From NCBI GenBank assembly GCA_013822345.1, contig PNKH01000022.1, forward strand, positions 1-64,000: a stretch of 64,000 bases of DNA, given 5' to 3'. Below the pieces are notes generated by a model. The model ran no database searches. It saw only the letters and a list, made by a program, of their open reading frames with translations, and was not told the DNA's origin. Made by a program: the position numbers and the translations under genes. Source of the DNA: Isosphaera sp. (GTDB lineage: Bacteria; Planctomycetota; Planctomycetia; Gemmatales; Gemmataceae). Shown piece by piece: positions 9,472 to 57,750 of the stretch (within the stretch, counting starts at the first letter, position 1; each line of letters opens with the position of its first letter).

Positions 9472-11318
9472 CCCTCCTGGTCGAACGCCTTCAGCCCGAG
9501 CGCCCCGCCGTGGACGGTGACGTAACAGAAGTGGTGGTCGACCCGCCCCTCCCGCTTGAAGAACGCCGGGGTCGGGGCGAAGTCCTCCAGCCGCCCGCCG
9601 CCCCCGCCGCTGGTCACGTGCACCACCCCGCCCTTCGCCGCCACCCGCCCGCCGCGGACCGGCCACGTCCGCTCGTACAGGTGGATGTGGCCGTTGAACA
9701 CCACGTCCACGTTGTGCTTCTCGTACAGCCCGTTCAGCGCCCGGGTCCGCGGGTCGCCGCCGGCCGTCGGCCCCTTCCAACTGTTCCCGTAGTCGTCCGA
9801 GTCGGACGAGTACACCGGGTGGTGGTGGTAGCACACCTTCCACCTGGCGGTCGACGCCGCCAGCGCATTGTCCAGCCACCTGTACTGCTCGCCGTTCGGC
9901 GTCAGGTCGCGCGGCGTGTTGGTGTCGAGGACGAAGAACTCCGCGTTGCCGTAGGTGTACGAGTAGTGGTACTCCGGCTTCGGGAGGGCGAAGTACTTGT
10001 AGTAGTGCGGGTGGTTCTTCTCGTGGTTGCCGATGCACGGGAACACCGCCACCCGGCCGAACAGCTCGCCGCACGGGCGGAACAGGTCGCCGGTCCACTG
10101 CCACTTCGCCGCCCCGTCGTCCACCACGTCCCCGACGTGCACGACGAAGTTCGGCCGCCGCTCCCACATCAGCTTCGCCACCCGCGCCGTCACCGCCGGG
10201 TTCCGCTGGGTGTCGCCGACCACGCAGAAGCTCCACGCGTCGTCCGGCCCCGGGGCGGTCATGAACGTCAGCGGCCGGCCCTCCATCCTCCGGCCGGCGG
10301 CGTCGGTGCAGACGACGCGGTAGAAGTACTTCGTCCCGGGCTGCAGGTCGGCCAGCACCACCTCGCCGAGGGCCGCCGGCTTGTCGACCTTCGCCGCCCC
10401 CTTCGGCGGGAACGTCGTCCCGTACTCGACCGCCGCGGCCGCCGGCGCCTCCTCCGTCTCCCACATCACCGTCATCGAGGTGCGGGTCGCGTACTGCAGG
10501 TACGGCTCGACCACGAACCGCGGGCCGGGCGGGATCACGGTCGGCAGGTCGGCCAGGTGCCGGTCGGCGTCGAAGTGGGCGGCGACCTGCTCGGCGGAGA
10601 GCGCGTGCGGGCAGAGGAGCACCTCCCGCACCGCCCCGCGCATCGGGAAGTCCTCGTCGTCGTCCCGGTACCGGCCGATCACGAGCGGGGCCGCCGTCGC
10701 GTACCGCACGCCGCCGGACTGCTCGGCGCTCGTCCCGTCGGGCTTGCCGTTGACGTACAGCCGCATCGCCCTGCCGTCGTACACCGCGGCCAGGTGGTAC
10801 CACTTGCCGCGCTCGTACCTCGTCCCGCCGGCGAGGTACGTCATCTTCTTCGACCCGGCCGACGCGAGCCCGAACTGGAACGCGGTCGGGTTGAACCCGA
10901 GGAGGAACCCGGCCTCGGCCGGGCCGTTGTCCTGGAAGCAGCCGACCACCCCGCCCCACTCGGCCGGCTCGTCCACCCGCACCCAGGCGACCAGCGACAG
11001 CGCCTCCTTCGGCAGGAAGTCGGCGTCGGCCGGGACGCGGTCCCGGACCAGTACGCCGTCGGACGGGCCGGCGAGTTCGAGCCGCGGGCCGGGCGGTCCG
11101 GTCTCCACCCTCGCCGCCCCGAGGACGGTGCCGGTCAGCTTGCCGGCGCGGTCGGCGACCTTGTTCCCGGCGACGCCGTCGGCGTCGAACACCCAGTGGG
11201 CGGACGGCTTCAGGTCCGGCCGCGGGCCGGCGCCGGCCGGGCCGCCGAGGTGGACCGCGGCGGCGACCAGGCCGGCGGCGCCGGCCGCGGCCGCGCCGGC
11301 CTTCCACGCTCGTGTCAT
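9435..11318 (-). CDS. Secreted LamG-domain metallophosphoesterase (purple acid phosphatase-like)
   Basis: Protein of 627 aa with three parts. First comes an Ala-rich signal segment (residues 1-30). Next is a concanavalin/LamG-like domain (about 38-240) with the typical WYHLAAVYDGRAMRLYVNG. Then a fibronectin-like purple acid phosphatase N-domain precedes a calcineurin-like phosphoesterase. Metal-binding motifs appear in order: GDTQ, GDVVDDG, GNHE, HHHPVY and NGHIHLYERT. It probably hydrolyses extracellular phosphate esters. It stands alone between the regulator gene and the repeat-rich 11.3-11.7 kb gap. The C-terminal codons are duplicated downstream. Confidence 0.88.
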   Translation of the reverse strand: MTRAWKAGAAAAGAAGLVAAAVHLGGPAGAGPRPDLKPSAHWVFDADGVAGNKVADRAGKLTGTVLGAARVETGPPGPRLELAGPSDGVLVRDRVPADADFLPKEALSLVAWVRVDEPAEWGGVVGCFQDNGPAEAGFLLGFNPTAFQFGLASAGSKKMTYLAGGTRYERGKWYHLAAVYDGRAMRLYVNGKPDGTSAEQSGGVRYATAAPLVIGRYRDDDEDFPMRGAVREVLLCPHALSAEQVAAHFDADRHLADLPTVIPPGPRFVVEPYLQYATRTSMTVMWETEEAPAAAAVEYGTTFPPKGAAKVDKPAALGEVVLADLQPGTKYFYRVVCTDAAGRRMEGRPLTFMTAPGPDDAWSFCVVGDTQRNPAVTARVAKLMWERRPNFVVHVGDVVDDGAAKWQWTGDLFRPCGELFGRVAVFPCIGNHEKNHPHYYKYFALPKPEYHYSYTYGNAEFFVLDTNTPRDLTPNGEQYRWLDNALAASTARWKVCYHHHPVYSSDSDDYGNSWKGPTAGGDPRTRALNGLYEKHNVDVVFNGHIHLYERTWPVRGGRVAAKGGVVHVTSGGGGGRLEDFAPTPAFFKREGRVDHHFCYVTVHGGALGLKAFDQEGRLFDEFALNKE

Positions 11319-11368
11319 GGGAACCCCCGGGATCTGTGCTGCGCGCGAGGTGCGGCTGTACCGTTGTC

Positions 11369-11374
11369 AGTATA
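11369..11374 (-). promoter_or_regulatory. Possible -10 element for the metallophosphoesterase gene
   Basis: On the minus strand the hexamer TATACT lies about 50 bases upstream of the ATG at 11318, in a short A+T-richer patch. No convincing -35 hexamer is seen 16-18 bases further up, so this is only a candidate. Confidence 0.25.
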
Positions 11375-11440
11375 CCCGCGGGACGTGTGGGTGGCGTGAA
11401 ATCGCCCGGGTCGGGTTGCCAACCTGGTGACTCGGTCGGT

Positions 11441-11728: not shown

Positions 11729-13357
11729 TCACTTCGCCCCGTCGAGGATCTTGATCGCCTCGTCACCCTGCCCGGCCCGCTTGTACAGCGGCAGGTGGCG
11801 GTAGTACACCTCCAGGGTCAGCACGCACAGGGCGGTGGTGCCGAGCCGGCCGCAGTGGCTGCCGACCGTCCCGGCGTCCGGCTCCCAGCTGCCGAAGTTC
11901 GCCCCCTCCTTGGTCACCTGCAGGCTGATCAGCCAGTCCCGCATCCCGCCCTGCCGCTTGCCGCCCACCAGCTTCCCCTCGTTCCACTCCTTCCACTCGT
12001 CCCCGTCGAAGAAGTGGACCACCTGGGTGGCGTAGTAGTAGTAGTACATGTCCAGGAGCCCGCCCTTGCCCGGCTGCCCCGGGCCCCGCTTCGTCAGCCC
12101 GAGCACCCCGGCCTGCATCCCGGCGTTGTCCGGGGTCCAGTTGTCGATGTAGTACCGGCACAGCAGCCCGACCGCGGTCAGGCTGGTGCCCGGCCGGGCC
12201 CGGGTGGCGTCCTGGTACCCGTAGGCCGACTTCCGGGAGCTCTGCGGGTCCTTCCCGTCCGGGTCGGCCCCGGCGAGGTTCAGGAACCCGATCGCCTTCC
12301 GGATCACCCCGGCGTCGACCACGATGTCCTTGCCGAGCTGGGCCGCCTTCAGGGCCTGGATCTGCCACCCGACGATCGACGTGTCCCCGTTGTTCGGGTT
12401 CTTGGCCGAGTACCCCCAGCTGCCGTTGGGCCCCTGGGCCTTCTGGATGCAGTCGATCGCCGCCTGGGCGAACTGCAGCAGCCCCTTGTCCTTGGTCATC
12501 CCGTACGCCTCGGCCAGGGCGGTCGAGGCGATCCCCTGGGAGTACATGTTGCCGTCCATCATCCCGCGGTTCGGGCCGCTCAGCGGGCAGTTCCGGGTCA
12601 GGTAGGCCAGCCCGTTGGTCACCGTCTTCTGGTACTTCTTCGCGGACTTGTGGGTCTCCCCGGCGGCCAGGAACGGGAGCAGGCACATCCCGGTGGCCGC
12701 GACCTTCTCCCCCTTCGAGGTGCCGTCGAACTCCCAGCTCCCGTCCGGCTTCTGCTGCTTGGCGATCCAGGCCAGCCCGCGGGCCACCGCCAGCTCGCTC
12801 TCCTTGTTCCCGCCGCCGGCGGCCAGCAGCTTGTCCTTGGTCGCCCCGCTCCGCCCGGCGAACGAGGCGAAGATGTTCCCGTTCATCCCGCCCAGCCCGG
12901 CCTTCACGTCCCCGCTGTCCCCGGGGGCCCCGGGGTTGGCGTACTCGTTCGAGATCGCCCCGGGCGGGGCCAGGGCGGTGATGTCCGTGTTCGGGGCGTC
13001 CGGCTGGCCCAGGTTGTCCTTCGTCTCCTCCGCCTGGACCGTCTTCACGTCCTCCCGCATCTTCTCCGGGTCGGCCGCCGCCAGTTCCGACACGATCCCC
13101 GGGTCCTCGTTCGTCAGGTCCTTCTCCGGCTCCGGCTCGGTCTTCTCGGCCGTCGTGTCGATCACCTTCTCCGGGCCCTTGGCGACCAGCCCCTTCGGCG
13201 GGAACGCCAGGATCAGGACCGCGATCAGCCCGACGTGCACCGCCCCGCTGATGACCCACGCGGGGACGTGCTTCTTCATCAGCCGTTCCTGCGCCGTCTC
13301 CTCGGCCACCTCGGTCCGGCGGATGACCGCCGCGGGGGCCTGCTTCTTCTCGGTCAC
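11729..13357 (-). CDS. TonB-like membrane helix fused to a terpene-cyclase-like alpha/alpha toroid
   Basis: Protein of 542 aa. A short cytoplasmic N-terminus is followed by one membrane helix (about residues 33-52), a Glu/Pro/Asp-rich linker (about 60-185) and an alpha/alpha toroid (about 190-540). The toroid has repeated QW-type motifs (QKPDGSW at 202-208, QGPNGSW and others), as in squalene-hopene cyclases. The catalytic DXDD is not seen; the matching place reads NNGDTS, so catalysis is doubtful. The helix has S37, H41 and L48 spaced like the S-H-L residues of TonB. The GTG start at 13357 has GAGGAGA seven bases upstream. It is the last gene of the ExbB/ExbD cluster. Confidence 0.8.
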   Translation of the reverse strand: MTEKKQAPAAVIRRTEVAEETAQERLMKKHVPAWVISGAVHVGLIAVLILAFPPKGLVAKGPEKVIDTTAEKTEPEPEKDLTNEDPGIVSELAAADPEKMREDVKTVQAEETKDNLGQPDAPNTDITALAPPGAISNEYANPGAPGDSGDVKAGLGGMNGNIFASFAGRSGATKDKLLAAGGGNKESELAVARGLAWIAKQQKPDGSWEFDGTSKGEKVAATGMCLLPFLAAGETHKSAKKYQKTVTNGLAYLTRNCPLSGPNRGMMDGNMYSQGIASTALAEAYGMTKDKGLLQFAQAAIDCIQKAQGPNGSWGYSAKNPNNGDTSIVGWQIQALKAAQLGKDIVVDAGVIRKAIGFLNLAGADPDGKDPQSSRKSAYGYQDATRARPGTSLTAVGLLCRYYIDNWTPDNAGMQAGVLGLTKRGPGQPGKGGLLDMYYYYYATQVVHFFDGDEWKEWNEGKLVGGKRQGGMRDWLISLQVTKEGANFGSWEPDAGTVGSHCGRLGTTALCVLTLEVYYRHLPLYKRAGQGDEAIKILDGAK

Positions 13358-13473
13358 GGGTCGTCTCCTCGGGCGGTAAGGGTGCGAGTCGGTCGTCGGT
13401 CGGAACGGAATCGAACGGGTCGGCGTCTCGGTCTTCCCCTCGCCCCCGGCGGGGGAGAGGTGGGAAGAAGGCC

Positions 13474-14997
13474 TCAGGCCGGGCCGGGGTCGGCGAACGG
13501 GTTGCGGCCGCGGTGGGCGTCGATCTCCCGCCGGGCCTGGCGGTCGCCGCGGCGGAACCACCAGATCAGGACCACCGCGAACATCAGGGTGCCGAACAAG
13601 AGGCCGGCGACGGCCGGGACGAACCCGCCGCCCCAGGTCCACTTGCTCGGGGCCTCCGGGTCTGGGCGGACCAGGACCGTCCGGGCCAGCACCAGCGGCG
13701 CCCTCTTCGCCTTGAACTTCGCCGGGTCGTCCTTCTCCCGCTCCCCCGACTGGTAGCGGAACAGCTTGAACGAGTACCCGGCGACCGACACCCACAGGTT
13801 CACCCGGCCGGTCGCCTCGGCCCCGGCCGGCGGGTCGGTGAACACCACGCACACCGGGTTCCCGCCCGGGGTGTCCTTCGGCACCACCCACCCCTCGTAC
13901 AGCTTCTCCGCCCCGGCCGCCAGGAGCTTCCCGGTCGGCTTCGTCTCCCGGAGCATCAGCAGCCGGCCCTCGAACCCGACCAGCTCGTTCCGGAAGTCCC
14001 GGCCCTCGTTGAACAGCCGGGCGAAGTCGACCGGGGCGGCGTGCCGCTCCAGCTCCTCGGGGTCGAACCGGCGGGCGTGCAGGAGGACGTGGTTCCACGC
14101 CCACGCCTCCTCCGGGTTGGTCTCGGCCCCGGCCACCTCCTTGTCGTCCCGGACGAACCGGAACACCCGCAGCCCCTTGTCCAGGGCGGCCGGGTTCGGC
14201 CCGGCGGCGACCGGGGCGGCCGCCCGCGGGGTGACCGCCCGGCACACCAGGACCGGGATCGCCGGGGCCCCCGGGGCGTCGTCCTGCTTGACCTTGAAGA
14301 AGTACCCGGCGGCGGTCGCCCACCCGTCGGCGTCGCGCCAGTCCGCCCCCGGCTTCTCCCCGAGCCCGGCCGGCCAGTCCGAGAACACCGCTGACACCAC
14401 CGCCCCGGGCGGCTCCGGGACCGGCACCAGCAGGGCCTCGAACAGGTCGCGGGCCTGGCCGTCCGGCCCCGCCGGGGCGGCCACCCGGCGGACCTTGGTC
14501 AGCCGGCCGTCGAACCGCAGCAGGCCGAGCCGCACCCCGTACCGCGGGGCGGCGAGCAGCTCGTCCCGGAGCAGGTCGCGGGACGCGTGCTCCTCCAGCA
14601 CGGCGGCGTCGAACTGCCGGGCGTGGGCCACCACCTCCTGCCACGCCTCGTACTCGTCCGGGTTCCGCGCCTCCGACACGAACGGGGTGAAGTCCTGGAT
14701 GCCGGTCCCCGGGACCTGGTTCCCCTTCGCGTCGGTCCGCCCCTGGAAGATCGCCCGGTCCGGCTGCGGGACCCGCAGCTTCTCGGCCAACTCGACCCGC
14801 TTCGGGTCGGTCGGCGGCAGCGGCGGCCGGGCGTCGACGGCCTTGGCCCCCTTCGACGCGGGGTCCGTCTCCTGGCCGCGGGCCGGCGGGCCGGCCGCGG
14901 CGGCCAGGGCGGCGAGCGCGACGAGAACGGCGCCGGGGGCCAGGCGGGCGGTCCGGGGTGGCGTCGGCTGCGAGTTCGTGGCGGCCAGACCGGACAT
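13474..14997 (-). CDS. Secreted, C-terminally anchored protein with duplicated domain (unknown function)
   Basis: Protein of 507 aa that I do not recognise by name. A signal peptide (to about residue 42, AARGQ) is followed by two copies of a domain. Each copy contains a NPxExxAWxxVxxHARxFDxxxLExHA pattern, then a GFEGRL/RFDGRL strand, then a GYFFKVK/GYSFKLF segment. The copies lie at about 108-255 and 280-425. A single membrane helix near the C-terminus (about 463-487, ending VVLIWWFRRGD) leaves a short Arg-rich cytoplasmic tail. The exbD gene upstream and the toroid gene downstream share the strand, which suggests one surface complex. Confidence 0.7.
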   Translation of the reverse strand: MSGLAATNSQPTPPRTARLAPGAVLVALAALAAAAGPPARGQETDPASKGAKAVDARPPLPPTDPKRVELAEKLRVPQPDRAIFQGRTDAKGNQVPGTGIQDFTPFVSEARNPDEYEAWQEVVAHARQFDAAVLEEHASRDLLRDELLAAPRYGVRLGLLRFDGRLTKVRRVAAPAGPDGQARDLFEALLVPVPEPPGAVVSAVFSDWPAGLGEKPGADWRDADGWATAAGYFFKVKQDDAPGAPAIPVLVCRAVTPRAAAPVAAGPNPAALDKGLRVFRFVRDDKEVAGAETNPEEAWAWNHVLLHARRFDPEELERHAAPVDFARLFNEGRDFRNELVGFEGRLLMLRETKPTGKLLAAGAEKLYEGWVVPKDTPGGNPVCVVFTDPPAGAEATGRVNLWVSVAGYSFKLFRYQSGEREKDDPAKFKAKRAPLVLARTVLVRPDPEAPSKWTWGGGFVPAVAGLLFGTLMFAVVLIWWFRRGDRQARREIDAHRGRNPFADPGPA

Positions 14998-15060
14998 GCG
15001 ACATTTCCTCAGACCGTTCGACGCACGCCCCGCCCCGCCGGTTCCCGGTTTTCCCGGTAT

Positions 15061-15128
15061 CTCGGTGGGGCAGGCATTCCTGCCTGCCGCTTTTCTGCTT
15101 GGCAGGCAGGAATGCCTGCCCCACCGAG
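15061..15128. repeat. Dispersed palindromic element, family C copy 1
   Basis: Perfect 28-base arms (15061-15088 and 15101-15128) built on GGGGCAGGCATTCCTGCCTG enclose a 12-base loop. Copies of the same core occur at 31.37 and 57.69 kb. It splits the ExbB/ExbD cluster between the second exbD gene and the 507-aa protein gene. A hairpin this strong could attenuate read-through. Confidence 0.9.
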
Positions 15129-15139
15129 ACGAGTCCCTC

Positions 15140-15685
15140 TTACCGGTTCTTCTTGTCGATCGGGACCGGGGCGATGTCGGTGAACCCGGCCTGGACGGAC
15201 GCGTCCATCAGCTGCACGACGTAGGCGTGCAACAACTTCTCGCCGATCTCCAGGGTGAGCTTCGGCGGCGGGATGGTCCGCGGCGGCTTCTCGGCCGCGG
15301 CCGCGTCCCGCCGCCGCTTGTCCTCGTCGGCCAACTTCTTGATCCGCGGCAGGAGCCCGGTGGCGACGCTGGCCCCGAGGTCCTCCCCGCGGTCGTCCGT
15401 CGCGCCCTCCTCCCGGAGGGTCATCTTGGCGATCTGCCCGTTGTCGGTGGCGAGGACGACGACCGCCCACTTCATCGGCTTCTCGTCGGCCGGGCTGGGC
15501 GGGGTGGACGATCGGCTGTCACCCATGTCCGGGGGCGGCAGGGCCATCCGGATCTGCCCCTCGGTCGGGGTCGGGTTGAACGTCATGATGAAGAAGGCCA
15601 GGAGCTGGAACGACATGTCGAGCATCGGGGTGATCGGCAGGTCCGGCTGCACGTCGTCGTCGGCCTTGCGCTTGCGGCGGGACAT
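15140..15685 (-). CDS. ExbD/TolR-family proton-channel subunit (second copy)
   Basis: Protein of 181 aa with a basic cytoplasmic N-terminus and one membrane helix starting PITPMLDMSFQLLAFFIMTF, in which D23 is the expected protonatable aspartate. A periplasmic domain follows, with a charged, low-complexity centre. ExbD/TolR proteins work with ExbB/TolQ to turn proton flow into movement of a partner protein. The gene lies 41 bases after the first exbD gene. The two ExbD proteins differ clearly in their periplasmic parts, so they may form a mixed dimer or serve different partners. Confidence 0.85.
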   Translation of the reverse strand: MSRRKRKADDDVQPDLPITPMLDMSFQLLAFFIMTFNPTPTEGQIRMALPPPDMGDSRSSTPPSPADEKPMKWAVVVLATDNGQIAKMTLREEGATDDRGEDLGASVATGLLPRIKKLADEDKRRRDAAAAEKPPRTIPPPKLTLEIGEKLLHAYVVQLMDASVQAGFTDIAPVPIDKKNR

Positions 15686-15726
15686 GGAGTTGGCCGGGGG
15701 TTGTGGGGTCGGCGGGACCGGGTCGC

Positions 15727-16203
15727 TCACTGGCCGAGGATGGCCCGCAGCTCGACCTTGCTGTAGTTCGCCTGCCGGCACGCCTTCATCAGCGGGTACG
15801 ACTTCTCGAACGTGGTGTCCTTGTCGATCCGCATGATCAGGGTGGTCTGCGGCTTCCAGTCGATCGGCGGGTCCTCCGCCTTCCGGGTGGTGGCCCGGTA
15901 CTCGCGCTTGGCCGCCCGCTTCAGGTACGCCTCCAACTCCGGCGGGGTGTCGAGCGCCTCCTTGTCCTCCATCTGGTTGCGGGACAGCAGCACCTGCCCC
16001 TTCGAGTTGATGTTGAGGAAGATCGGGTCGCCCTCGTTCTTGTCCAGCGCCTTGGCCGCGATCGCCTCCGGCAGCTTGATCTCGACCGCCGTCTGCTCCA
16101 GCACGAAGTTGGCGCAGAGCATGAAGAACATCACCAGCTGCAGGACGAGGTCCAGCAGCGGGGTGAAGTTCGGTTCGCACTTCTCGGTGCTGCCGTGGCT
16201 CAT
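15727..16203 (-). CDS. exbD: ExbD/TolR-family proton-channel subunit (first copy)
   Basis: Protein of 158 aa with the ExbD layout: a short N-terminus, a membrane helix NFTPLLDLVLQLVMFFML with the key aspartate at D18, and a periplasmic domain of about 115 residues that includes a GDPIFLNINSKGQVLL strand pair. It lies between exbB and the second exbD gene on the same strand. The spacing to exbB (97 bases) is filled by a GTCGGGAGTC-type repeat. Confidence 0.88.
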   Translation of the reverse strand: MSHGSTEKCEPNFTPLLDLVLQLVMFFMLCANFVLEQTAVEIKLPEAIAAKALDKNEGDPIFLNINSKGQVLLSRNQMEDKEALDTPPELEAYLKRAAKREYRATTRKAEDPPIDWKPQTTLIMRIDKDTTFEKSYPLMKACRQANYSKVELRAILGQ

Positions 16204-16205
16204 GG

Positions 16206-16298
16206 CGGGGGTCGGGAGTCAGGGATCGGGGGTCAGGAACCGAGCGCGAGACCGGGGGTCGGGCCTCTTCTGACTCCTGACCCCCGGCTCCCGGCTCC
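16206..16298. repeat. Imperfect inverted repeat of GTCGGGAGTC type between exbB and exbD
   Basis: Tracts of GGGAGTC, GGGGGTCAGG and their complements (CTCCTGACCCCCGG) face each other across about 40 bases. The unit resembles the in-frame tract inside the copper ATPase gene at 3.86 kb. It may put a stable hairpin between the channel genes. Confidence 0.6.
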
Positions 16299-16300
16299 TG

Positions 16301-17098
16301 CTACCGGCCCGGCGGGGCGGCCGGGGCCCGGCTGCCCTCGGGCGGGGCGGCGCCGCCGGCCGGCTTCTTCGAGTTGTGGTACATCTGGGTCAGCAGGTCG
16401 TCGGCGATGTGCCCGACATCCATCATGACCCGGGTGATCCGGTTCTTGAAGAAGGCGTTGAAGAAGATCGCCGGGACGGAGATGGCGACCCCGACCAGGG
16501 TGACGGACAGGGCGTGCGAGATCCCCTCGGCCAGCTTCGCCGGGTTGATCTGGGTGCCGGTGGCGAGCACCGAGAACGACTGGATCATCCCGAACACGGT
16601 GCCGACCAGCCCGAGCATCGGCCCGAGGGTGGCGACGACGGCGGTGTAATTGTTCTTCTGGTCCTTGTCGCTCTTGATCGACTCCAGGGTGTTCATCGCC
16701 GCCTCCCGGGCGTCCTCCAGCCCGTACTGCAGCCGGCTCATCCCGGCGGTCAGCACCTGGCCGAGGAACGACGGGTCGTTCCGGGCCATGTCGAACGCCT
16801 CCTTGAACTTCCGCTTGTTCACCGTGTCGGTGAACTCGTCGACGAACCCGGGCGGGATGGCCGATGTCATCCGCAGGTCGAGGACGAGGAGGACGCACAG
16901 GGCCAGGAGGCCGACGGAGACGGCCAGCAGGAGCGGGCCGAACACCCACCCGAGCGACTTGATCATGAACAGGACGAGCGGCTCACCCTCCTTGATGCCG
17001 CCCTCCTCGGCCCGGGCGAGGTCGGGGGTGGCGGCGACCGCCAGGACGGCGAGGGCCGCGACGCCCAGGAACCTGAAGTGCTTGTGGAACCGCGGCAT
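16301..17098 (-). CDS. exbB: MotA/TolQ/ExbB proton-channel family protein
   Basis: Protein of 265 aa. An N-terminal signal-like segment (residues 1-30, ending ATPDLARA) precedes the three-helix ExbB core. Helix 1 includes VFGPLLLAVSVGLLALCVLL, and the helix 2-3 block includes TLGPMLGLVGTVFGMIQSF and SVTLVGVAISVPAIFFNAFF. A cleaved leader before helix 1 is seen in some ExbB proteins. First gene of the cluster. The C-terminus is Pro/Ala-rich. Its partners are the two ExbD proteins just downstream. Confidence 0.88.
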   Translation of the reverse strand: MPRFHKHFRFLGVAALAVLAVAATPDLARAEEGGIKEGEPLVLFMIKSLGWVFGPLLLAVSVGLLALCVLLVLDLRMTSAIPPGFVDEFTDTVNKRKFKEAFDMARNDPSFLGQVLTAGMSRLQYGLEDAREAAMNTLESIKSDKDQKNNYTAVVATLGPMLGLVGTVFGMIQSFSVLATGTQINPAKLAEGISHALSVTLVGVAISVPAIFFNAFFKNRITRVMMDVGHIADDLLTQMYHNSKKPAGGAAPPEGSRAPAAPPGR

Positions 17099-31365: not shown

Positions 31366-31434
31366 TTCCGGTGGGGCAGGCATTCCTGCCTGCCTCCGCA
31401 AACTTGGCAGGCAGGAATGCCTGCCCCACCGGAA
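31366..31434. repeat. Dispersed palindromic element, family C copy 2
   Basis: Perfect 29-base arms (31366-31394 and 31406-31434) with the GGGGCAGGCATTCCTGCCTG core and an 11-base loop. It lies between two divergent genes, so promoters for both must flank or include it. Confidence 0.9.
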
Positions 31435-57687: not shown

Positions 57688-57750
57688 CGGGTGGGGCAGG
57701 CATTCCTGCCTGCCCAGCCGCACGGCAGGCAGGAATGCCTGCCCCACCCG
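57688..57750. repeat. Dispersed palindromic element, family C copy 3
   Basis: Perfect 27-base arms (57688-57714 and 57724-57750) with the GGGGCAGGCATTCCTGCCTG core and a 9-base loop. It lies between parB and the downstream paralogue pair on the same strand. Confidence 0.9.

Follow-up and report, generated by a model that had tools for sequence, protein, structure and literature searches.

A candidate proton-driven force transducer with a terpene-cyclase-type toroid domain in an ExbB-ExbD operon of a planctomycete

Williams-Jones et al. proposed in 2025 a class of vWA force transducers, which combine an SHLS-type transmembrane (TM) helix, a disordered linker and a vWA end domain, have motor genes and a TPR gene as neighbours, and are described as having an unknown function (PMC12204202). 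The same paper describes the motor box, a beta strand that follows the helix in TonB and TolA. In E. coli, Ser16 and His20 of the TonB helix (Ser-x3-His) contact Ser34 and Trp38 of ExbB, and the Leu and last Ser of the SHLS motif are described as less conserved in Ton, according to PMC12215075. Here, we analyzed a 64,000-nucleotide stretch of DNA from Isosphaera sp. (contig PNKH01000022.1, positions 1 to 64,000; hereafter the window), and found an operon encoding one ExbB, two ExbD, a periplasmic protein (P2) and a protein with a toroid domain. We consider it likely that this protein works as a motor-driven force transducer, like TonB and TolA, with the toroid as its working domain.

Among the classes described so far, vWA force transducers come closest, and we regard the window protein as a variant of this kind with a new end domain. 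Compared with PMC12204202, the two share one SHLS-type TM helix, a linker, motor genes and a C-terminal domain unlike that of TonB or TolA. They differ in the end domain, which is vWA there and an (alpha/alpha)6 toroid here, and in the operon: the window contains P2 and no TPR gene was found there (searched with a model built from sister operons, E 1e-20), and sister operons have a fused PD40 propeller. No VWA family was matched by Pfam in the window protein or in the ten relatives scanned (L062, L069, L082, L088, L098-L103; L numbers denote loci). The words toroid, squalene and Gemmata are absent from the main text of PMC12204202, and no toroid-ended transducer is described among the matches listed in the literature that we searched. 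Another paper, PMC8567305, mentions "biopolymer transport protein complexes" and cites for them a planctomycete-envelope paper that may touch these genes. The original prediction, made from the DNA letters, had spoken of an undescribed system. This stands for the toroid end domain only, as the kind is known from the proposed vWA transducers (PMC12204202). The features of the operon are as follows.

16301..17098, minus strand: ExbB/TolQ-like proton channel subunit, 265 residues (P0005), PF01618
15727..16203, minus strand: first ExbD/TolR-like subunit, 158 residues (P0004), PF02472, TM Asp D18
15140..15685, minus strand: second ExbD/TolR-like subunit, 181 residues, PF02472, ATG at 15685 read from the frame
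13474..14997, minus strand: P2, 507 residues, predicted periplasmic from its AlphaFold2 model
11729..13357, minus strand: candidate toroid transducer, 542 residues (P0001), GTG start, from reading frame, model and relatives
13205..13261, minus strand: TonB/TolA-like TM helix, toroid protein residues 33-51 (S37, H41), from AlphaFold2 and the motif in relatives
12863..13201, minus strand: acidic, Pro-containing, putatively periplasmic linker, toroid protein residues 53-165, from composition and low model confidence
11780..12850, minus strand: predicted (alpha/alpha)6 toroid domain, residues 170-526, no DXDD, from the match to 2sqc
15060..15129, strand not assigned: perfect 29-nt inverted repeat between the second ExbD gene and P2, a dispersed repeat, probably incidental

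All five genes of the predicted co-directional cluster were found on the minus strand, in the order ExbB-ExbD-ExbD-P2-toroid from 17098 to 11729, with gaps of 41 to 142 bases. The toroid gene starts with GTG at 13357, and GAGGAG lies ahead of this start codon. For the second ExbD, the translation P0003 starts three codons after the ATG at 15685, and its residue D20 is given in P0003 numbering.

The helix of the toroid protein contains S37, H41 and L48, and the fourth SHLS position is F52, not Ser. Thus, the full SHLS motif is absent, and what the protein has is a TM helix with Ser-x3-His. A short hydrophobic stretch was noted by eye after the helix, but the AlphaFold2 model has no strand there, and we do not claim a motor box. 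Relatives were found via shared short exact peptides, and the best 80 of 103 loci formed a first set (79 of 80 titles name planctomycetes or a genus thereof; one says only "Bacterium"). The 94 toroid rows in these loci were sorted by hand into linked (whole-length toroid proteins whose gene has a same-strand ExbD gene no more than 3 kb upstream), unlinked, signal-peptide-like, and fragments without an N-terminus (six, in L018, L026, L039, L040, L042 and L066). S-x3-H was present in 33 of the 36 linked proteins, and the His in 35. The background frequency was 13 in 1244 TM segments, and one of these hits is itself a toroid helix; this background consists of other open reading frames of at least 150 residues in the fetched loci, includes non-coding frames, and was taken with a stricter hydropathy limit. 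In L069 the motif reads SLLLH. Other helix positions differ from group to group of the linked proteins, and the L48 position holds Leu, Met, Ala or Phe in relatives. The predicted S-H-L spacing of the TonB helix therefore stands for S37 and H41; L48 is present in the window protein but is not conserved as Leu.

The motif was also found in 34 unlinked toroid proteins whose helix precedes the toroid by at least 50 residues, and it was absent from the nine toroids behind a signal-peptide-like segment (two each in L022 and L030; one each in L041, L045, L052, L054 and L066). One copy in the same genome, on contig C81, has a toroid 76% identical to the window protein and is its nearest row in the tree; a signal-peptide-like segment replaces the helix there, and the motif has disappeared together with the helix. 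The spacing between helix and toroid ranges from about 110 to over 1100 residues across relatives. A second set of 20 stretches from 19 genomes was picked by hand, either as linked or possibly linked, or mostly for a match that extended into the N-terminal region. Its 22 helix-bearing toroid proteins comprise 18 with S-x3-H, three with A-x3-H (L101, L105, L114) and one with neither (L104), so that 21 of 22 have the His in what is not a random sample. The His is present in all six linked proteins of this set (L098-L103). Across a large part of the phylum, the motif is kept.

ExbD lies upstream of the toroid gene, on the same strand and within 3 kb, in 36 of the 80 first-set loci, and 19 of the 80 hold the complete operon with P2 between the ExbD genes and the toroid gene. 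We also drew a sample of 30 genomes evenly over the phylum. ExbD was found in all 30 and the toroid family in 28 (search at E 1e-20), with up to 22 matches in one genome. In at least 6 of 29 other genomes (G025, G036, G038, G041, G042, G049), ExbD is closely followed by a toroid gene on the same strand, compared to about 0.6 expected (P about 4e-5), an expectation that is rough because it takes 5 kb downstream, is halved for strand and counts each ExbD singly. On the toroid tree, the linked state requires 11 changes, compared to a shuffled mean of 32.6, and none of 500 shuffles was as low. There are three main linked groups: Gemmataceae, with P2 present and unlinked copies interspersed; Pirellulaceae/Planctomycetaceae (12 rows); and Phycisphaerae-and-others (8 rows, with middling support of 87/69); L054 stands apart. 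The root is for drawing only and long branches meet in places, so the linked groups are groups and not origins. We rejected the assumption that the toroid and motor genes are chance neighbours on the basis of the motif, the linkage counts and the clustering in the tree. The original prediction had named two outcomes that would speak against it. Neither of them was observed: the toroid gene does co-occur with exbBD, and of the S, H and L positions only that of the Leu varies freely in the linked proteins.

The motor residues encoded in the window are intact. ExbB matches PF01618 with 82.8 bits (cut-off 22.9), and the ExbD pair matches PF02472 with 70.3 and 40.0 bits (cut-off 25.4). The TM Asp of ExbD, which we take to be the proton-carrying residue of E. 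coli, is invariant, both as D18 of the first ExbD (36/36) and as D20 of the second (25/25), leaving no variation to set beside S37 and H41. In a 33-row ExbB alignment with gaps omitted, the pore threonines T167 (32/32) and T200 (33/33) and the TM1 serine S61 (31/31) are likewise conserved. The threonines were matched to E. coli residues by motif and alignment; S61 was equated with E. coli Ser34 by eye, the tool alignment covering only residues 145-253.

Several observations weigh against a motor-driven transducer. Three linked proteins depart from the motif (A-x3-H in L079, C-x3-H in L088, S-x3-N in L029), and L104, about 4 kb from an ExbBD set, has a helix without it. Nine unlinked proteins have a helix well ahead of the toroid and lack the motif (L030_9278, L059, L064, L071, L074, L078, L085, L089, L090). 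Of the 34 unlinked genes with the motif, 17 have at least 4 kb of upstream sequence without ExbBD, as sought with ExbB and ExbD models built in this analysis. Motif-bearing toroids without a nearby ExbBD would need a motor in trans, and ExbD is present in all 23 genomes checked behind unlinked loci. In addition, the linked ExbB rows lack the Trp that E. coli carries four residues after the contact Ser, and six of these rows, which belong to the Planctomycetaceae group (L069, L079, L080, L083, L086, L087), have no TM3 Pro. This suggests that the contacts may differ in detail.

In the AlphaFold2 model of the toroid protein (59 sequences), residues 33-51 form a helix, the linker is disordered, and a helical domain spanning about 170-526 is predicted with confidence. 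The predicted local distance difference test score is below 50 at residues 98-162 and from 82 to 98 for blocks of 181-520. Thus, the disordered linker and folded distal domain of a force transducer are present in the predicted model. Residues 53-165 include 22 acidic, 10 basic and 13 Pro residues. The linker of E. coli TonB is more Pro-rich. The linker had been predicted to be acidic and Pro-rich as in TonB, and it is acidic and contains Pro, but less of it than the TonB linker. Together with the S-x3-H helix and the linkage to motor genes, this linker gives the toroid protein the features of an ExbBD-coupled transducer, as predicted.

The best VIA match of the toroid domain is the squalene-hopene cyclase 2sqc (Z 26.6, root mean square deviation 3.0, 286 residues aligned), with other terpene cyclases, sugar epimerases and GH76 further down the list. 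Three QW-like motifs were found at 202, 308 and 480, and the DXDD acid motif of class II terpene cyclases is absent from the window protein. The model, the 2sqc match and the motif check therefore agree with the predicted alpha/alpha toroid with QW motifs and no DXDD. The predicted (alpha/alpha)6 toroid is a feature of class II terpene cyclases, and the fold is common to many other activities. These data raise the question of a membrane-tethered terpene or hopanoid cyclase, whose place beside ExbBD would reflect shared envelope regulation. Class II terpene cyclases, including squalene-hopene cyclase, resemble the window protein in the modelled toroid fold and the QW-like motifs, but the window protein has no DXDD, has one toroid and not two, and would be tethered outside the inner membrane, where its helix is expected to place the domain. 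S-x3-H would be superfluous in a plain anchor. Matches to Pfam cyclase models are only partial: the squalene-hopene cyclase match of the window protein is below threshold (20.7 vs 26.1 bits), and some relatives pass the cut-off (L069 with 34.2 bits, L062 with 38.8). We rejected the cyclase reading for the missing DXDD and the probable location outside the inner membrane, and regard it as very improbable.

We then compared the operon with TonB-ExbB-ExbD. The two share ExbB, ExbD, the S-x3-H helix and an acidic, Pro-containing linker. They differ in that the toroid protein has no TonB C-terminal domain (no PF03544 match in the Pfam scan), for which reason TonB proper was rejected, and in that neither TonB_C nor the plug of TonB-dependent transporters was matched in this genome (95.2% complete; positive controls matched in 3/14 for each search). 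The motors of this genome thus have no recognisable TonB to serve. In such a genome, a substitute for TonB uptake would make sense: the toroid would bind a polysaccharide, another polymer or an outer-membrane channel, and the motor would pull it in. The (alpha/alpha)6 fold is common to many carbohydrate-active enzymes, Foldseek places a GH76 mannanase first (E 1.1e-6) and squalene-hopene cyclase third, sugar epimerases and GH76 also stand in the VIA list, and three relatives (L062, L069 and L103) score above the Pfam cut-off for Pec_lyase. But terpene cyclases come first by Z, the fold is very common, the Pfam scan found no glycan gene in the window operon, and TonB_C is present in 23 of the 30 sampled planctomycetes, including four of the six linked genomes. 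Uptake is therefore possible but unlikely in our assessment.

The sister operons of the Pirellulaceae/Planctomycetaceae and Phycisphaerae-and-others groups encode a longer toroid protein, in which S-x3-H usually sits in the third TM helix. In this position, the helix would still run from the cytoplasm outwards. Exceptions are L098, with only two TM segments, and L086, with the helix in another frame. A PD40 propeller lies between the first two helices in five of the six linked second-set proteins (L099-L103), and L082 has PD40 repeats and a further toroid in the same place; the Pfam scores of these six range from 66.6 to 81.9 bits (cut-off 20.9). No PD40 match was obtained by Pfam in L098, nor in L062, L069 and L088 of the Pirellulaceae/Planctomycetaceae group. 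Directly upstream of ExbB, 15 loci encode a TPR protein of about 1000-1200 residues, which is broken in L086 and L101. We also observed that in L102 (513-5153, genome G042) the linked toroid protein has a PDZ domain behind the toroid, with PDZ_6 over the cut-off. The complete operon of L022 (2809-5823) has two more toroid genes immediately upstream of ExbB. One product starts with a signal-peptide-like segment and the other has the lipobox-like sequence LVALGC; it is possible that they are an outer-membrane partner.

These layouts resemble Tol-Pal, with which the window operon has motor subunits and an SHLS-type helix in common; the sister operons add a PD40 propeller reminiscent of TolB and a TPR protein reminiscent of CpoB. 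The system thus looks more like Tol than like TonB. These layouts differ from Tol-Pal in that the toroid protein has no TolA C-terminal domain and the propeller of sister operons sits on the transducer itself. Because of the TPR and TolB-like propeller partners, we favour a Tol-like mechanical task, such as holding or remodelling the envelope, over nutrient uptake. The original prediction had suggested that the motor perhaps moves something across the envelope. This remained unsupported; the sister operons speak for a Tol-like task no less than for uptake. One of the 30 sampled genomes has a TolB_N match, which just reaches the cut-off (22.5 vs 22.4 bits), and Pal was not searched for; compared with the TonB_C count, the single TolB_N match indicates that classical TonB is common in the phylum and classical TolB nearly absent at Pfam sensitivity. 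A more specific and rather doubtful reading is a planctomycete counterpart of Tol-Pal, consisting of the proton motor, the large TPR protein and one polypeptide with TolB-like propeller, TolA-like helix and toroid, which in Gemmataceae would be split into P2 and the toroid protein, and holding or constricting the envelope in growth or division.

P2 was predicted to be a 507-residue anchored protein. Its AlphaFold2 model (mean score 86.2) agrees in showing a C-terminal TM helix, and corrects this description by a signal peptide and two helix-plus-OB-like-barrel repeats. The best structural match is an OB-fold protein, with a weak Z of 8.7. No P2 homologue was found in the second-set stretches (P2 model, E 1e-4), so that P2 and the propeller are counterparts by analogy of layout only.

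Taken together, the data suggest how a force transducer of this type might work. The single helix would dock via S37 and H41 on the side of an ExbB5-ExbD2 proton motor made from the three upstream genes, because the motif is present and the motor residues are intact. Proton flow through the motor would act on the flexible linker and move the periplasmic toroid, which in turn would grip a periplasmic partner or one located at the outer membrane. P2, with its anchor in the inner membrane, might shape or hand over the toroid contact; the grip and the role of P2 are the weaker parts of the proposal. Alternatively, the toroid protein could be an anchor or sensor that sits on ExbBD and gates or positions the motor, with no force passing through the helix. 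For the E. coli structures, PMC12215075 discusses the helix Ser and His as a route by which a signal reaches the pore, and the toroid domain also occurs in secreted paralogues without the motor helix. But the plan of helix, long linker and distal domain known from TonB and TolA is kept over large sequence distances, and we consider the anchor or sensor improbable compared to a force transducer.

Other observations concern the wider family and genome. The clade of L064, L071, L074, L078, L085 and L089 consists of unlinked toroid proteins with helix and linker, no His, and a long N-terminal stretch in the stop-to-stop frame. The genome has a second ExbB-ExbD-ExbD set on contig C5 (L092, 8064-11434). 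Convergent to it, at 10364-11434 on the minus strand, lies a gene whose product has a single helix, with A-x3-H in it, and is matched by no Pfam family; it may be a further transducer with a different end domain. On contig C28 (L096, 3811-10298), a secreted toroid paralogue lies beside MoxR-type AAA, DUF58 and BatA genes, and on contig C4 (L097, 1300-11229) another is three genes from a VWA protein. This suggests that toroids and vWA domains may travel together outside motor operons too. Within the window, a dispersed near-palindromic repeat with the core GGCAGGCATTCCTGCC occurs at 15060-15129, 31375-31425 and 57695-57743, and the core has 13 matches with both strands counted, compared to 0.86 expected. 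The copy between the second ExbD gene and P2 could end or tune transcription within the operon; it is probably incidental.

If the toroid protein is indeed a force transducer, the toroid would be the second working domain other than those of TonB and TolA among proton-driven force transducers. This fold is mainly associated with enzymes and not with mechanical parts. The toroid family occurs widely in planctomycetes, a group with an unusual envelope. The finding would thus point to an undescribed mode of mechanical work in the planctomycete envelope, in which a motor of the TonB/TolA type is coupled to a terpene-cyclase-like ring.

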